Virus record (IMG/VR): IMGVR_UViG_3300025873_000042
Location: 1-25,397 of that record
DNA length: 25,397 nt
Direction: 5' to 3' (one strand)
Source: a virus
Shown: positions 2,632-23,020 of the stretch, piece after piece
Numbering within the stretch: position 1 is the stretch's first letter
Layout of the letters: the number at the start of each line of letters is the position of its first letter
Position numbers and translations under genes: made by a program
The notes under the pieces: generated by a model
What the model was told of the DNA's origin: nothing
Databases searched by the model: none
The model's input: only the letters and a program-made list of their open reading frames with translations

Positions 2632-3375
2632 GTGAACATTCCAACCACGAAGTCCAGTGTCAAACTGGATTTGCTGCACCCGAAGTTCGTTCAGCGCCTT
2701 GAGGCGTTCTTCTCTGATTCCCGCATTGAGGGCCGGGTGGCTGTGTCGTCGGCATGTAGATCACTGGCTGACCAGCAGTATTTTTATGACCGGTACAAAT
2801 CTGGGCGGTCCAAGATCCTCGCGGCCAATCCGGCGCGCCGGTTTGGGCCGAAGGGCATGGACGGTCTCGGAATCTGGAGGGGAAGTTGGCACATGCAACA
2901 GGGTGCCGATGGATGGTGCTACGCGGTTGACCTGCACCAGTTGGACAGGAAACTTCCGAAGCCTGACATCAACAAGATCGCAACTGAGTTCGGATGTCGC
3001 CCAACGGTGGCGAGCGAATGGTGGCATCATCAGCCGCGCATGTCCACGGACTGGTTCCCGGCTCCGGCCCTGACCGGCGAACCCTACGAACGCCACGACG
3101 CGCCGAAGCACAAGATGGACTGGAAGGGAATCGCCGCGGCAATCCACGCGCAACGCCAGACGGTGATCTCAACGCCGTTGAAGCGTGGGTCGCGGGGTGC
3201 AGCAGTCAAGACCGCCCAGACGTTGCTTGGCAATAGGGGTATCCGTGTTGGCGCTGCCGACGGGATCTACGGTAGGAAGACCCAGACAGGCGTTCGGGCC
3301 TTCCAGAAGAAGGAAGGGTTGACCGCCACAGGCGTCGTTGATGTCAAGACATTCGACGCCCTGTTCACCAGTTAG
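2632..3375 (+). CDS. Endolysin: M15 peptidase plus peptidoglycan-binding domain
   Basis: 247 residues. Residues about 12-140 form a zinc-dependent M15 (D,D-carboxypeptidase/VanY-type) domain: SACRS near 40, SWHMQQGADGWCYAVD with H87 and D100 as probable zinc ligands, and EWWHH with E129 as general base and H132 or H133 as third ligand. Residues 184-246 form a PG_binding_1 domain with the DGIYGRKTQTGVRAFQ signature. The enzyme would cut peptide bonds in host peptidoglycan at lysis. No signal peptide is seen, so export by the downstream holin is expected. The GTG start has no Shine-Dalgarno; a promoter-like -10 lies 7 bases upstream. It heads the lysis cassette. Confidence 0.9.
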   Translation: MNIPTTKSSVKLDLLHPKFVQRLEAFFSDSRIEGRVAVSSACRSLADQQYFYDRYKSGRSKILAANPARRFGPKGMDGLGIWRGSWHMQQGADGWCYAVDLHQLDRKLPKPDINKIATEFGCRPTVASEWWHHQPRMSTDWFPAPALTGEPYERHDAPKHKMDWKGIAAAIHAQRQTVISTPLKRGSRGAAVKTAQTLLGNRGIRVGAADGIYGRKTQTGVRAFQKKEGLTATGVVDVKTFDALFTS

Positions 3376-4073: not shown

Positions 4074-4531
4074 TGGACGACGATCAAACAACGGAAGCCC
4101 TGCGGAGCATCCAGCGTACTCTTGACGAGCACTTTGCAACATCGTCTGCACCCCCTTACCTGAACGTCCCCCCGCCGGGGATTTCGTCACCGGGGATCTC
4201 AACACGGGTGGAACAAGCCACCGGCCTGATCGACAAGATCAAGGACAACATCGCGTACATCGTCGGCCTGCCCGCGACCCTCGGTGGCGCATTTGGTTTC
4301 TTGAGTGACCACTCAGATTCCCAAGCCCAACTCCAACATCAGGTCACCATGCTGGAAGGTGCCGTCGCCGACCTGAAAGCGGAAGGCGACCTACTGGGGG
4401 GCGGCACCAAGAACTTCTCAATCGACATGAGCGGAGCACCCGGCGGGTCCATGACCGTCATCCTCGTCGCCGCGGTTCTGGTCGTCGGAGTTGGTCTCCT
4501 GTTCTGGTACCAATCCCATCGTCGTCGTTGA
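4073..4531 (+). CDS. Lysis-module membrane protein
   Basis: 152 residues. After a soluble start and a proline-rich stretch (about 26-42) there is an amphipathic or short membrane-active segment at about 58-78. A helical region with coiled-coil character follows (about 82-108, [17 protein letters not shown]), then a clear C-terminal transmembrane helix (about 127-146) and a basic SHRRR end, predicting a tail-anchored protein with the short basic end inside. The position between holin and a lipoprotein suggests an accessory holin, antiholin or spanin-like function, but no family is recognised. The stop overlaps the TTG of the next gene (TTGA). A hairpin covers the start. Confidence 0.75.
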
Positions 4532-7500
4532 CCCGGCGTCTATGGCTAGCCGTCCTCACGGCGCTTCTGGCAGTCTCCTGTGGGGGGAAAGCCGCTACCC
4601 CTGCTGAGGCTCCTCAGACGGTCACCACAACGGCTCCAGAACCGACTCAGAGCACTTCAACGACCAGCGGTCCTCCTACAGCCACGACAACGGTTGCACC
4701 GACGGCCACGACGATTGCCGACCCAACCCCGGAAGCCACAGGGGTGGGGGCGTCGCTGCGGTACACCCCCGACCGCGATGGCTTCTCATTTGAGAACTTT
4801 GGAGGCGGTGAAGCCCCTGCCGAGTTGACCGTCAACATGGCCCGACGGCTCTACGGCGACGGACAGGTCTGCTCGTCGGTAGTGGACAACCAATGCACCC
4901 CGTACCCGGTCATCCTGCAACTCATCCAGCAGGCCAACCGGTCGATGCGCGGAGGGCTGTGTGAAGGACTCACCGTCCTGTCGCTACGCCTCGCTAATGA
5001 TCCGGTCACCTTGTCGTCGTTCCAGAACGTCGATGATGTCGCCGCTCTGGTCAAGGCCGACCCGGCGCTGCTGTCAGAGATCGCCTACTGGTATGTCACC
5101 CAGTTCGCCACCGAGGTACAGGAGCAGGCGTCAGCGTTCCTTGAACTGTCCCCGCTGGCTCTGGCCCGCATCCTGTACGAAGACTTCGCAGCAGCCGAAG
5201 CCGGGGAACCGTCCGTCGGCTACACGGTCGGTATCTACTCGGAGCACGGAGGGCACGCCGTCACCCCGTACAAGGTCACCACCGACGGGGACCGGTGGCG
5301 CATCCACATCTACGACTCCAACTGGCCGACCTCGGAACGGTGGATCGACGTAGACGAGAAGGGCTGGGCCTACGCCCTTGCAGCAACCAACCCGACCGAA
5401 GCATCCGAGGCGTGGGGTGGCGGTACCGGGACGATGGAGTTGACGCCAATGACCTCCCGGTCGGGGCCGTTCACATGCGGGTTCTGCCCCACCGACGACG
5501 AAGAAGCCGGAACGATGCTCACCGTTGCCGCATCAGGCGACAAGCAAATGTCCATCCAGATCGAAACCGAATCGGGCGACCGGCTCGGCTACTACGACGG
5601 CACGTTCGTCAACGAAATCGAAGGGGCGACGTACCGGTACCTGATCTCAGGGCCAAGCACCGCTGACCCGGTGCTGGTGTTCCTCCCGCCCGGCGTTGAT
5701 GACTTCACCGCCGACGTTGACGTTATTGACGTTCCAGCGCCAGCGGAGGTCGAACCAAGCCGCCCAAGTAGCCCCTCAAGTACCGAAGCCCCGCTGGAGC
5801 CGGAACCCGAAGAGGATACCACCCAAGAGTTTTCGCTTCTGATCCTTGACGACGAGCGATCTGTCCAGATCGAAGCCGAGGTGCCCACCGGGCCGGAGCC
5901 TGAGCCTGAGCCGGTAGCACCGGGAGAACCGGAACCGGAGGGCGAACCAACGTCGCTGATCCAGTTCTCCGAGGAAGCCGTAGCGGTCGCCGACATCGAA
6001 GAAGCGACTGTGGCGATCGCGGTAGACGCCCTTGAGGTTGAAATAGAGATAGAGCACGGCCAACAAATCGCCGTCCAGTTCGTTGCCGCTCCCCCCGTTG
6101 AACCGTTGCCCGGAGGGCCAACCCCAGACGAGCCGGGCGTGGTTGAACAGCCGTCGGTGCTGTCGATCGCCATAGCCGACGACGCCGGAGTTGAGTTAGC
6201 CACAGTCGAAGTGGACCTGACTGCCTACCAAGTGGAAGCCCCGGTAGCGACCCCGCCGACGGACCCGGCACGACCAGAACCCACCACACCCCCGCTGCCG
6301 CAAGCCCCGGTGGTGCTGGCGATCACCTTCGATGAGGACACCGGAGACATTGACCAGCAGGAAGAAGAGATCGAAGCGTGGGTCGCGTCGGACGCTGAAT
6401 ACTTCCAAGCGGTCGCCGAGGACCGGGTGGAAGAGGTGCTCGGTGGGTCGTATGTCGAAGAGATCGAAGAACGCGGCGAATGGGAACCCCCGCCGGAGTT
6501 TGATGACGCGCCGGGCCTCGCCGAAACGCTGATCGTCGCCGATGACTACTGGGAGGACGAACAGTGGGATGAGGTCACCTACGACGACGAATGGTTTGAG
6601 GACCAAGCCGAGGCAGTAGCGGAGACGTTCGCTGCTGTGGAGGAGGAGGAGTGGTGGGACGCCGACCCGGAGGTGTGGGTCGAAGAGTTCGTTGAGGAGC
6701 ACGCGGACGACCGGGTGGTGCTCGCTGCTTGGGAACCTGACCCTGAACCCGAACCGATCCCCGAACCCGAACCGGAGCCGGAGCCTGAGCCGGAGCCGGA
6801 GCCTGAGCCGGAGCCGGAACCTGAGCCTGAGCCGGAACCTGAGCCTGAGCCGGAACCAGAGCCTGAGCCGGAACCGGAACCGGAACCGGAACCGGAACCC
6901 GAACCGGAACCCGAGCCGGAGCCGGAGCCAGAACCGGAGCCGGAGCCAGAACCGGAGCCAGAACCAGAGCCAGAACCAGAGCCTGCACCCGAACCGGAAC
7001 CGGAACCAGAGCCGGGAGTAGATGAAGAACCACTACCGGCCACAACTACGCCACCGGCTACGACCACACCCCCGGTCACGACCACACCCCCGGTCACGAC
7101 CACACCCCCGGTCACGACTGTTCCGGTCACGACCGTCCCGTCATGGGACCAATACTCCGGGTGTCGGGGCACACCAGCCTGCGAGGACGCCCCCGGCGGC
7201 TTCGCCACTTGGGATGATTATGACGCGGCGCACAACCCGGCCTATTACGACGACTGGGGTGCAGTCCCGGCGGGGTTCACCGGGTGGGCCGCGGTCGTCG
7301 TGGCTGTCGAAGCAGGAGACGTTGACGCCGATGTGGCGGGTGAGGTGCTGCCCGACTTCGTGTTAGATCAGGGGATAGTGGAGGTGTATGTGGCACCGGT
7401 CCATGTCCCGACCATGACATCCCAGACGACCGTTGAGGCTCTGTCGGAAACCCTGTCCACTGTCGTCGTCACAACCCAGACGGGAACCGAGACAACAACC

Positions 7501-8289
7501 AACGTCACAACCTCGTTGACGAACAACTCTTATGACACCTACTGGTACGAGGCAGTCGCAACGGCGACGACGGTGACCAACACGCTTGTGGACACGACAA
7601 CCGTGGTGGCCCGCGCCGGGTCTGACACCGTGACCTGTACCTACGTTGACAACGTGGAAAGCGGTTGCAGCACTCAGCGGGCTTGGGAAGACTCCGAGAC
7701 GATGGTCACCGCGGGCGACTCATACACGGCGGCGACTACCACAACAGCCAACTCCACAATCCCGGCATCATGTAGCCAAGGCGGGTGGACCGGACTGGGC
7801 GATTGGTGCATCGTCGAATCAGAGAGCCGCACAGATTATGAGTACGTCTCGTTCCAGTTGACGGCATCGACCGACATCCGTATCGACGCCGACACGAACC
7901 TGACGTATGCCCAGTTCATCGCAGGGAACAGCCAGTTCGCCGATCCGTACATCTTCCTCAACTACGACACCGACACTGACGAAGGGGCGCACTCCGGGGA
8001 CACTTCGGAGATCACGGTCGGTGCCCAGATCGCCTACAACGACGATGGTGGCCGTGACTGTGGAAGCACCTGCGCGAACCCGCCGAGCAACGCGACAGAC
8101 CCGGACGAGTTCCCGAACTCGGTCATCGCATGGGATGACGGCGACACCCCGGTCATCGTCAACGTGTCCGACTCGTGGGACAGCCGCATTGAACAGACAT
8201 TGGCTCCGGGTGATTACGTTGTCAGGGGTTCCGTTTACAGCACAGGGCATGACGGGTGGTACCGGTTGACTATCAGAGAGAACGACTGA
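4528..8289 (+). CDS. Giant predicted lipoprotein: papain-like domain, Glu-Pro repeat, PPC-like C-terminus
   Basis: 1253 residues from TTG at 4528, which overlaps the previous TGA (TTGA) and gives a good lipoprotein signal: Arg-rich start, hydrophobic core and LAVSC with lipidation at Cys18. A Thr/Pro linker (about 25-70) leads to a domain (about 75-300) with [22 protein letters not shown] (Cys145), [10 protein letters not shown] (His243) and IHIYDSNWP (Asp263/Asn265). This Cys-His-Asp/Asn order resembles papain-like (C39-like) peptidases of secreted actinobacterial proteins. Next come long acidic, Trp-containing segments, about 95 residues of mostly Glu-Pro, Thr-Pro repeats, and a C-terminal domain (about 1100-1250) with DPYIFL, NDDGG and [10 protein letters not shown], like pre-peptidase C-terminal (PPC) beta domains. 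It may be displayed on the infected cell or be a virion or lysis-stage protease or adhesin. The architecture is clear; the function is inferred. Confidence 0.82.
6733..7017 (+). repeat. Glu-Pro coding hexanucleotide repeat
   Basis: About 95 codons of almost uninterrupted Glu-Pro, built on the hexamer GAR-CCN with shuffled synonymous codons and a few Ile, Asp and Ala substitutions. It lies inside the giant lipoprotein gene. A polyglutamate-proline stretch is stiff and highly charged, suited to a wall-spanning stalk. The hexamer can change length by slippage without a frameshift. Confidence 0.9.
7061..7114 (+). repeat. Three perfect 18-bp tandem copies (Thr/Pro linker)
   Basis: The unit CGACCACACCCCCGGTCA occurs three times head to tail at 7061, 7079 and 7097, followed by a diverged partial copy. 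It encodes a TTTPPV-type linker just after the Glu-Pro repeat. Perfect identity at the DNA level, including third positions, points to recent expansion. Confidence 0.9.
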
Positions 8290-14270: not shown

Positions 14271-14282
14271 CGCTAGATAGAG

Positions 14283-14317
14283 TTGCATCCACGCTCCACG
14301 CAGGCTATGATTAGTTC
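14283..14317 (+). promoter_or_regulatory. Leaderless promoter, TTGCAT family copy
   Basis: TTGCAT at 14283-14288, 17-base spacer, TATGAT at 14306-14311, six bases, then GTG at 14318. The upstream flank GCTAGATAGAG is shared with the copy at 22985. This copy has the closest -10 to consensus and lacks the later Shine-Dalgarno (CCAAGAAG in place of CCAAGGAG), so the GTG is the only plausible start. Confidence 0.8.
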
Positions 14318-18387: not shown

Positions 18388-19032
18388 GTGGATGAGCACC
18401 AGCCAATCGAAATCCTTCTGCATCGCGTGATGACCGACATCGGCGCGGTGGAGAAGACAGGACGCAACCAGTCCCAACAGTTCAACTTCCGAACCATTGA
18501 CGACACGATGAATGCGGCGCACAAGGCGCTCACCATTCACGGCGTGATCGTCGCCCCGGAGATCGTGGACAAGTTCAGCGAACGGATCGCCACCAAGAAC
18601 GGCAACCTAGCGCAGCGCGTGGAGTTGACCGTCCGGTACCGGTTCATCGGCCCGAAGGGCGACGAGGTGTTGGCAACGGTCGCGTCGGAGGGCATCGACT
18701 ATGGGGACAAGGCCACATCGAAGGCCATGTCGATGGCGTTGAAGTATGCGCTCTTTCAGACGTTGATGATCCCCACCGAAGAAGCCGACCCTGACGCCCA
18801 GACCTACGAGATCGCTTCGGAACCGACGGTCAGCGAAGAAGAGGTCGTCCAGATCCAAAACTGGTTCATCGGTATCACCGACGACGAGCGGCGCAAGGTG
18901 CTCAAGAAGGACTTCATGGACAGGTACGGGTGCCCTCCAGTAGAGTTGCCTTCCCGCTTGATGAACGACTTCTACGATTGGGCGGGGCAGGTGCTAGCCG
19001 TGGAAGAGACGAAGGAGAAGCAGAGTGCCTAG
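18388..19032 (+). CDS. erf: ERF-family single-strand annealing protein
   Basis: 214 residues from GTG at 18388. ERF signature: KTGRNQSQQFNFRTIDDTMN (23-42), then a beta-rich middle (LTVRYRFIGPKGDEVLATV), and EGIDYGDKATSKAMSMALKY with ALFQTLMIPTEE (101-132), the conserved GDKA..KA.S.ALKY core. ERF proteins form rings on single-stranded DNA and anneal homologous strands in phage recombination and genome circularisation. The C-terminal third is acidic and helical, probably a partner-binding tail. The stop overlaps the start of the replication initiator gene by eight bases, linking recombination with replication. Confidence 0.9.
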   Translation: MDEHQPIEILLHRVMTDIGAVEKTGRNQSQQFNFRTIDDTMNAAHKALTIHGVIVAPEIVDKFSERIATKNGNLAQRVELTVRYRFIGPKGDEVLATVASEGIDYGDKATSKAMSMALKYALFQTLMIPTEEADPDAQTYEIASEPTVSEEEVVQIQNWFIGITDDERRKVLKKDFMDRYGCPPVELPSRLMNDFYDWAGQVLAVEETKEKQSA

Positions 19033-19789
19033 TCGCCTTTGGAGCGACACCGGCCCGTTCACAATCATCCCCGAATGGCTGCTGGATTCTCCCATCAGCG
19101 ACGGTGCTGTCCGGTTGTACGGGATACTTGGCCGGTACGCCAATGATGAGGACGCAGCGTGGCCGTCGCGTGGCCTGCTGGCAAAGAGGATGGGTACCAC
19201 CACAAAGTCGGTGGACCGTCGGATCGCTGAACTGGTGAAGGCTGGGGCGCTTGCTGTGGAGCATCGCCTCGCTGAGAGTCCGACCGGGAACAGGTTTCAC
19301 CGGTCGAACATCTATCACCTCAAGCGTGTAGACCCTTCGGGGGTAGGGACACAGTTGTCCCTACCTAGAGACGCTGATGTCCCCACGGTGGCGACAGTGG
19401 TGTCTCTGGGTGGGGACACTGTTGTCGCCCTGAACGAGAGCCATGAACTAGAGCCAATAGAACGAGACGTGCGCGTCGAAAAGCCAGAGGCATCTGTTCT
19501 CTGTGATCGACTCGCTGACCTGATCGCAGCGGACGGTTCCAACAGGCCGACCGTGACGAAACGGTGGATCGAAGAGATGGATCGCCTCGTCAGGATCGAC
19601 GGCTACGACATGGCAGCGGTATCGGAGATGATCGACTGGGTGACAACCGAGGACTTCTGGTCATCCAACATCCTCTCCCCGCAGAAGTTACGAAAGCATT
19701 ACCCCCGGTTGATGAAGCAGCGAAGGCGCTTGAACGGCTCAGTTGCCACCGGGCGCACCGACCGGTTGCTGGCGGTGCTTGATGACTAA
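19025..19789 (+). CDS. Replication initiator/replisome organiser with HTH domain
   Basis: 254 residues from GTG at 19025. The N-terminal 100 residues form a helix-turn-helix domain (TIIPEWLLDSPISDGAVRLY, SRGLLAKRMGTTTKSVDRRI, ELVKAGAL). A central, probably unstructured segment (about 105-145) is encoded by four DNA iterons. The C-terminal part (about 170-240) has MDRLVRIDGYDMAAVSEMI, TTEDFWSSNILSPQKLRKHY and a basic end, as in phage replisome organisers that recruit a helicase or loader. It lies between ERF and a loader-like gene, the usual replication module order. It most likely binds the iterons inside its own gene and opens the origin, as lambda O does. Confidence 0.85.
   Translation: MPSRLWSDTGPFTIIPEWLLDSPISDGAVRLYGILGRYANDEDAAWPSRGLLAKRMGTTTKSVDRRIAELVKAGALAVEHRLAESPTGNRFHRSNIYHLKRVDPSGVGTQLSLPRDADVPTVATVVSLGGDTVVALNESHELEPIERDVRVEKPEASVLCDRLADLIAADGSNRPTVTKRWIEEMDRLVRIDGYDMAAVSEMIDWVTTEDFWSSNILSPQKLRKHYPRLMKQRRRLNGSVATGRTDRLLAVLDD
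19342..19430 (+). repeat. Four iterons inside the initiator gene: candidate replication origin
   Basis: Four direct repeats start at 19342, 19364, 19387 and 19409 (spacing 22, 23, 22). Examples are GGTAGGGACACAGTTGTCCC and GGTGGGGACACTGTTGTCGC. Eleven of the first 20 columns are identical in all four, including G.GAC....G.TGTC.C. Each is a quasi-palindrome GGGACA-N4-TGTCCC; in copy 1 the arms pair perfectly over 10 bp (19342-19351 with 19356-19365). The spacing is not a multiple of three, so the repeat is kept for DNA, not protein. The sequence after them (about 19433-19500) is less GC-rich. Confidence 0.78.
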
Positions 19790-20204
19790 GGACGAAGCCA
19801 AGCAGGTTCTCCAAATGCTGCTCGGGGCGTTCCCTCGGCATGGGCTGGATGACAACGGGGTGAGGATGTGGGGGGAGTCCCTCAGCCGCTCCGATTTTGA
19901 TGTTGCCGTGGCAGCGGCTCGCCAAGTGATTCAACGAGACGAGTTCATGCCATCCATCGCGAAGTTCTCTGGCGAGATCAGGCACGCGGTGAACCTCAGC
20001 AAGCGGCGTCCTAGCAGCGACGACTGCACGAATCCCGACGGTTGTCAGGGGTGGTGGCTGAAACAGAGTGAAAGCGCAGTTGTGAACGGTGACGGTGAGG
20101 TTGTGGAGGTCAGAACTGTGGAGAAAGCAACTCCGTGCTCCGAGTGCCGACCCGACCTGTTCGCCCGGTGGAAAGACGGTTCCCTACACAAGTCGAAGAC
20201 ATGA
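19782..20204 (+). CDS. Helicase-loader-like protein
   Basis: 140 residues from ATG at 19782, overlapping the initiator gene by eight bases. The N-terminal part TKDEAKQVLQMLLGAFPRHG, VRMWGESLSRSDFDVAVAAA and DEFMPSIAKFSGEIRHA follows the pattern of G39P-type phage helicase loaders (three or four helices; W...L...D...V; F.PS...). The C-terminal part has CTNPDGCQGWW and CSECRPDLF, two Cys pairs that could bind zinc, which is not typical of that family. It probably loads a host or phage helicase at the origin. Confidence 0.7.
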   Translation: MTKDEAKQVLQMLLGAFPRHGLDDNGVRMWGESLSRSDFDVAVAAARQVIQRDEFMPSIAKFSGEIRHAVNLSKRRPSSDDCTNPDGCQGWWLKQSESAVVNGDGEVVEVRTVEKATPCSECRPDLFARWKDGSLHKSKT

Positions 20205-20998
20205 TCTACCGGGTTGGTGCTGCGTTCGTCGCATCGGTGGCGATGATTACCTGTTCGGCTGCGGGCACCGACACGGGGGCCGGTAATCTCTCTGCTGGCC
20301 CCGTGACCACCGCGGCTGTGCGGCAAGCCGTCTCTGAGCCTGTGCGTCGTGCTCAGAGCATTGTGAGCACGCACACCGTGGCTCCCGACACGAGCACGTC
20401 AAGTGATCCTCTGATGGGTACGACCAGTGGGAGCGTGAACTCCATTCAGTCCATGATGGCATCAACCACTACAATACCGCTTACTTACAACGACTTGTTG
20501 TATCACGAGTTTGCAATGTATGAGCGGGGTGGCGATGTTATAGCCCTCCAAATGCACCTTGGGTTGAAAAGTGTGGACGGTATCTACGGTCCTGTGACGA
20601 GGCGGGCGCACGTTGACTACTTCGGAGGACCACTAGCGGCGCTCGCTGTGTTCCACCCACAGGTCGTCTACCCGGTTGCGTCTGGTGACACGACCCTCGG
20701 TGAACTGATCGACCGGTACTTCCAATCCGCTGACCGGGCGTGGGCACGTCAGGTCGCGTTCTGCGAATCAAGCGCACAAACGCATCACACCGGATCGGAG
20801 GTGGTGTCGTCAGCGTTCGCGATCGGCTGGTTCCAGCACCTCGCCAAGTTCTGGGACGAACGCTCCGAGAAGGCCGGGGTGCCGGGTGCCAGCCCGTTCG
20901 ATACCGAAGCGAACGTCGCTGTCGCTGCATGGTTGCTCTATGAGGGCGGCGGTGCCCGGCATTGGAATCCATCACGAACCTGTTGGGAGACAGAATGA
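20201..20998 (+). CDS. Secreted peptidoglycan-binding transglycosylase
   Basis: 265 residues from ATG at 20201 (ATGA overlap with the loader gene). A signal peptide (MIYRVGAAFVASVAMITC) has a possible lipobox at Cys18, followed by a Ser/Thr-rich linker. Residues about 105-142 form a PG_binding_1-like domain (GGDVIALQMHLGLKSVDGIYGP, TRRAHVDYFG). Residues about 175-262 resemble lytic transglycosylases/lysozymes: ARQVAFCESS with Glu189 as probable catalytic acid, FAIGWFQHLAKFW, and EANVAVAAWLLYEGG then HWNPSRTC. An exported wall-cleaving enzyme translated with replication genes is unusual. Options are superinfection exclusion, an accessory lysin, or a virion enzyme for DNA entry. Confidence 0.82.
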   Translation: MIYRVGAAFVASVAMITCSAAGTDTGAGNLSAGPVTTAAVRQAVSEPVRRAQSIVSTHTVAPDTSTSSDPLMGTTSGSVNSIQSMMASTTTIPLTYNDLLYHEFAMYERGGDVIALQMHLGLKSVDGIYGPVTRRAHVDYFGGPLAALAVFHPQVVYPVASGDTTLGELIDRYFQSADRAWARQVAFCESSAQTHHTGSEVVSSAFAIGWFQHLAKFWDERSEKAGVPGASPFDTEANVAVAAWLLYEGGGARHWNPSRTCWETE

Positions 20999-22967: not shown

Positions 22968-22984
22968 CACTGTGCTAGATAGAG

Positions 22985-23020
22985 TTGCATCCATGCTCTA
23001 GGGAGGCTATGCTGGGGTTC
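22985..23020 (+). promoter_or_regulatory. TTGCAT promoter with leaderless GTG and in-frame second start
   Basis: TTGCAT at 22985-22990, 17-base spacer, TATGCT at 23008-23013, seven bases, then GTG at 23021. An in-frame ATG at 23057 follows AAGGAGAG at 23046-23053. The upstream flank GCTAGATAGAG is the same as at 14273. Confidence 0.82.

Follow-up and report, generated by a model that had tools for sequence, protein, structure and literature searches.

In bacteriophage lambda the origin iterons lie inside the gene for the initiator O (PMC7466680), and the locus described here has the same plan. In phage SPP1 oriL is found within gene 38, where direct repeats and an AT-rich opening element are embedded in the gene for a 256-amino-acid initiator; a small loader gene, gene 39, comes next and overlaps it (PMC6316719). 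The RepA_N plasmid pSK41 carries four Rep boxes inside rep that are bound by the winged-HTH N-terminal domain of the protein, and the protein can do without the linker that the origin encodes; in the hybrid pPR9 a phage-type PF13730 module, together with its origin, replaces the N-terminal one of pSK41 and the plasmid replicates (PMC5703833). For mycobacteriophages, repA and its flanks are sufficient for plasmid replication and the origin is suspected to lie inside repA (PMC7157519). Short tandem repeats beside initiator sites are known as the 13-mers of RK2, to which TrfA binds as single strands in a strand-specific manner (PMC4081077), and the DnaD recognition element of B. subtilis is also bound as a single strand (PMC10201434). 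Of the phages known from sequence alone, hardly any has a mapped origin.

We propose that a stretch of viral DNA of 25,397 nucleotides (here called the window) very probably contains a phage replication origin made of two parts, both of which lie where its own initiator gene encodes a linker. The plan is ordinary in kind and, judged from sequence, well supported as that of an origin. The part that appears to be new is a shared box, AACKAGARCCA, for which no description came to light in the literature that could be searched.

The initiator gene (19025 to 19789, plus strand, GTG start) encodes 254 amino acids and consists of an HTH_36 winged domain, a linker and an O-like C-terminal domain. HTH_36 (PF13730) was matched by Pfam at amino acids 24–74 (3.5e-10), and the C-terminal helical domain (amino acids 149–238, 19469 to 19738, plus strand) is defined by phrog_391, 'replication initiation O-like' (1.2e-21), by phrog_277, by BLASTP to lambda O and by the structural model. 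In an AlphaFold2 model built with 29 aligned initiators two confident domains flank residues 108–142 (19346 to 19450, plus strand), which have a pLDDT below 50 and are predicted to be disordered; this coded linker contains the iterons and the boxes. A sequence search of the PDB returned no relatives of the initiator, and a PDB fold search gave modest matches (E about 1e-3 to 1e-2) that include DnaD and entries titled as an initiator and a Rep-DNA complex, while a viral fold library yielded phage proteins with HTH domains, among them an Arthrobacter initiator. Upstream lies a gene for an ERF single-strand annealing protein (18388 to 19032, plus strand; PF04404 4e-22, phrog_155 6e-30), and downstream a helicase-loader-like gene (19782 to 20204, plus strand; phrog_2289 3.4e-6, a weak match), the ATG of which overlaps the 3' end of the initiator gene. 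A preliminary description of this DNA had named the same neighbours around an HTH initiator, and the PF04404, PF13730 and phrog_2289 matches bear this out. Directly behind the replication module, at 20135–20998, a reading of the translation suggests a peptidoglycan-binding or transglycosylase-like gene, which stands apart from the other lysis-type gene at 2632–3375. Two further features of the window may be recorded here: a 38-bp sequence, 89% identical between 14272–14309 and 22974–23011 and each time in front of genes, which may be a repeat of this phage associated with starts or with regulation, and a 1253-residue open reading frame at 4528–8289 with a TTG start and a very long Glu-Pro repeat tract (about 6670–7055).

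Four iterons occupy 19343–19431 within the linker: GTAGGGACACAGTTGTCCCTAC (19343 to 19364), CTAGAGACGCTGATGTCCCCAC (19365 to 19386), GTGGCGACAGTGGTGTCTCTGG (19388 to 19409) and GTGGGGACACTGTTGTCGCCCT (19410 to 19431). Their starts are 22, 23 and 22 bp apart, and the iterons therefore stand in different codon frames, so that both the spacing and the break of frame noted earlier hold, with the range given then, 19342–19430, being correct to about one base. The quasi-palindrome previously ascribed to every unit holds in full for iteron 1, a perfect dyad GTAGGGACA-N4-TGTCCCTAC with 9/9 outer pairs, but iterons 2–4 are only partly symmetrical (5–6 of 9), although iterons 1, 3 and 4 have the exact core GACA-N4-TGTC and iteron 2 differs from it by one base. 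When spacer length was scanned, N4 gave the peak, and N2 and N6 were raised as well because the dyad arms run on, which lends modest support. The chain of four iterons has 14 mismatches to its consensus, compared with 22 for the best of 300 synonymous recodings made with window codon usage, a test that is partly circular since the consensus was derived from the repeats themselves. A consensus-free dyad test within the gene was not significant (25 vs up to 27 in 60 recodings), and chance was thus excluded by way of relatives instead.

The closest relatives, L001 (93% protein identity), L002 (grouped with L001 at 93%) and L003 (67%), all keep four iterons at the identical spacing of 22, 23 and 22 bp. 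Between the window and L003, third-position identity is 72% in the linker and 34% outside it, whereas protein identity is lower in the linker (60.5% vs 67.8% outside). Moreover, among codons for the same residue, 23/26 are identical in the linker and 46/133 outside (Fisher p=3.7e-7), which indicates that the constraint on the linker acts at the DNA level, as had been proposed, and on these counts a peptide-level cause of the repeats was rejected. We also looked for the case that would speak against this, a protein kept with its repeat spacing lost, and L003 proved to keep the repeats and their spacing better than the protein. The earlier suggestion that the coded linker is free to vary agrees with its disorder in the AlphaFold2 model and with its lower protein conservation in L003.

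Wider relatives found by protein searches comprise viral contigs of 44–54% identity, Arthrobacter phages, a Vibrio phage and a Jatrophihabitans genome bin. Nearly all of them have direct or dyad repeats at 21–25 bp spacing directly after the HTH domain; the iteron sequence is lineage-specific and its place in the gene is the same. PF13730 is matched by 29/29 aligned initiators, and is the only Pfam family matched by the window protein. The Arthrobacter phage homologues are annotated 'RepA-like replication initiator', and on the features tested the window initiator fits this kind of HTH_36 phage initiator with an in-gene origin. In the Jatrophihabitans bin there is a second initiator copy (L009, 5001–5300) next to the longer copy L008; the similarity of L009 fades shortly beyond the first repeat, and this is perhaps a decayed prophage.

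The preliminary description had the element end at 19430, but a second and more widely shared repeat follows at 19433–19456. After a gap of one base from iteron 4, the plus strand reads AACGAGAGCCA-TG-AACTAGAGCCA, in which both copies (19433 to 19443 and 19446 to 19456) match AACKAGARCCA exactly, the two copies being offset by 13 bp and differing in codon frame; copy 1 is a probable opening element. A degenerate third candidate, AACGAGACGTG (19461 to 19471, plus strand), agrees at 7 of 11 positions and is weak, being drawn from sequence only. In homologues found by protein alone the box (one mismatch or fewer) is present in 10/15, and the density of its sense-strand matches at the same threshold is 35-fold higher inside the initiator gene than outside it. 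L008, L010, L012, L014 and L015 have no match within one mismatch, and thus the box is not universal. At L015 2752–2850, in the initiator of Vibrio phage K67, three iterons are followed by a CTAACA-type tandem repeat at the place of the box, and hence the opening repeat may have lineage variants.

We then scanned 2.9 million viral contigs for paired boxes by motif only. The pair AACTAGAACCA-N1-5-AACTAGAACCA was found in 67 contigs and a GAG variant in 11, a total of 78, compared with 7 contigs for a reversed control motif of equal composition, of which 0/7 were initiator-like. HTH-initiator ORFs, recognised by a profile built only from the N-terminal domains found by protein, hold 52/67 and 8/11 of these matches (60/78), with repeats just upstream. 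Many of the 78 are near-identical, leaving 47 non-redundant initiator or origin-like cases, and since these copies were chosen by motif, figures for box conservation drawn from them are biased. Seven matches lie in non-coding DNA (L055, L057, L072, L076, L080, L108 and L109), and five of the seven are preceded on the same strand by a stand-alone HTH ORF from this family, which terminates 56–79 bp short of the box, the interval containing iteron-type repeats. These five (L055, L057, L076, L108 and L109), in which both dyads and box are non-coding and the contigs are otherwise unlike the window, look to be the unfused form, that is, the same origin without fusion to a C-terminal domain. The other two have a non-coding box pair behind direct repeats (L072 218–243, L080 6151–6176) and no HTH gene recognised upstream; in L080 an SSB-like gene lies downstream. 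The remaining 11 matches fall in seven low-complexity genes, three other replication-like proteins and one unrelated gene (L104). In L043, L046 and L087 the linkers of another type of replication-like protein contain ELEP repeats, encoded by a 12-bp form of the box that stays in frame; this may reflect low complexity arising by chance or represent one more variant of the origin.

The exact box pair is absent from 397 actinobacterial genomes, a plasmid collection had no blastn match to a 41-nt box query, and the Arthrobacter variant pair AACTTAGAACCA was found in 0 viral contigs. In mycobacteriophage Miko repA dyads follow the HTH and the box was not seen, nor was it seen in TP901-1 rep, which has a 15-bp in-gene repeat and an HTH_36 match just below the cut-off. 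A search of the literature for the literal box on both strands, in a collection that omits most subscription journals, found no origin paper.

Might selection on the peptide that the linker encodes have produced the DNA pattern incidentally? Many relatives do have LTRTTELEP in common where the box lies, and some motif matches are simply low-complexity ELEP genes. However, box copies occur in at least two codon frames in 41/43 genes and encode NESH, LTRT or ELEP according to frame, the DNA is better kept than the protein in L003 and the same element also occurs in non-coding DNA, which together make this explanation extremely unlikely.

The geometry of the two parts is also conserved. Among 43 non-redundant initiators, iteron spacing is exactly 22, 23 and 22 in 15 and the last two intervals are 23 and 22 in 23, while the distance from the last iteron core to the box is 3–4 nt in 36, the window having 4 nt. 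In duplex instability the 40 bp at the box rank, in the median case, at the 99th percentile of their locus, as compared with the 35th for the iterons, and it is most likely that the box is the opening element. Within the window's initiator gene, the 40 bp of lowest stability begin at 19429, and instability at the box reaches the 93rd percentile of the whole window, a weaker signal than the group median. An analysis of GC skew, which had been suggested as a check for an origin, was run and has no turn at the iteron and box site within this fragment. The array could instead be a set of operators through which the HTH protein represses or paces the replication operon by way of its own gene, with the origin elsewhere: winged-HTH proteins of such size are often repressors, some Arthrobacter homologues are annotated as transcriptional repressor, and dyads about two turns apart would suit repressors too. 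This is unlikely, as the array is placed mid-gene and not at a promoter, at a position that matches lambda ori, the protein carries an O-like or DnaD/DnaT-like C-terminal domain, and a conserved unstable box follows at a fixed distance.

As to which domain reads the iterons, iteron-profile distance over 43 phage initiators follows the recognition helix (partial r 0.35, p=0.0005) as well as the remainder of the N-terminal domain (0.36, p=0.0005), and shows no relation to the C-terminal domain (partial r -0.03, p=0.66). In addition, in the natural swaps L077/L026 and L037/L029 the C-terminal domains are near identical and the recognition helix and iterons have both changed. The case that the N-terminal domain reads the iterons, as the preliminary description had supposed, is therefore strong but not final, because related sequences are not independent and permutation leaves shared ancestry partly in. 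This result also bears on the idea that the array serves partition, packaging or recombination. Inverted-repeat arrays do occur at parS-like and recombination sites, and ERF adjoins, but the iteron reader appears to be the initiator itself, the gene order of annealing protein, initiator and loader is that of a replication module and the neighbouring genes that we examined include none recognisable as a partition gene; we regard such a site as very unlikely.

For an origin in the linker, we infer the following sequence of events. Dimers of the N-terminal winged helix would bind the four dyad iterons, with half-sites one helical turn apart, and form a nucleoprotein complex, which would open the adjoining strand-asymmetric AACKAGARCCA array. 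One strand of the box would then probably be held single-stranded, and the O-like C-terminal domain, together with the loader-like neighbour, would recruit the replicative helicase. A broader proposal, to which we give an even chance, is that AACKAGARCCA is a portable and widely shared phage origin-opening signal, kept in genes and non-coding DNA alike while iterons and DNA-binding domains diversify in matched pairs and C-terminal domains swap, and read by an invariant winged-helix surface or a common host protein. This raises the question of what reads the box, which is constant while the iterons, the recognition helix and the C-terminal domain change. The composite of dyads about 22/23/22 bp apart, 3–4 nt and tandem AACKAGARCCA would allow origins to be found by pattern alone, natural matched initiator-iteron pairs, including near-isogenic swaps, are available for recognition studies, and small modular replicons for little-studied Actinobacteria may follow.

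Compared with the systems outlined above, the window resembles SPP1, as known from its published description, in its 254-amino-acid initiator and overlapping loader-like gene. pSK41 and pPR9, the latter likened by its published description, differ in being plasmids and in having another C-terminal domain; no match to PF06970 (RepA_N) was found in the window initiator, and the resemblance in fold is modest. Opposite AACTAGAACCA the complementary strand reads TGGTTCTAGTT, in which every third base is T, like the TnnT of the DnaD element, although the GAG..GCC variant of the window box interrupts this series; the RK2 and DnaD boxes are bound by other proteins, and for the window single-strand binding is hypothetical, by analogy. 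The closest likeness is to lambda O and ori-lambda, which also have four dyad iterons mid-gene, with reading by the N-terminal domain being predicted for the window. Iteron starts are 20, 24 and 23 bp apart in lambda (as annotated) and 22, 23 and 22 in the window, both totalling 67 bp, and the A-rich opening tract of lambda lies directly 3' of the iterons, the place taken by the box in the window. The C-terminal domains are homologous (shared phrogs, BLASTP 2e-8). However, the N-terminal domain is HTH_36 (PF13730) in the window and Phage_rep_O (PF04492) in lambda O, the iteron sequences are unrelated, and the window has a specific tandem box in GC-rich DNA where lambda has a plain A-rich tract. 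The earlier label 'lambda-type' is thus apt for the design and the C-terminal domain, but not for the DNA-binding domain, and since the latter is not Phage_rep_O we do not file the window under the lambda O family; what these comparisons indicate is an origin that works like lambda ori, with an initiator that is not a strict member of that family.
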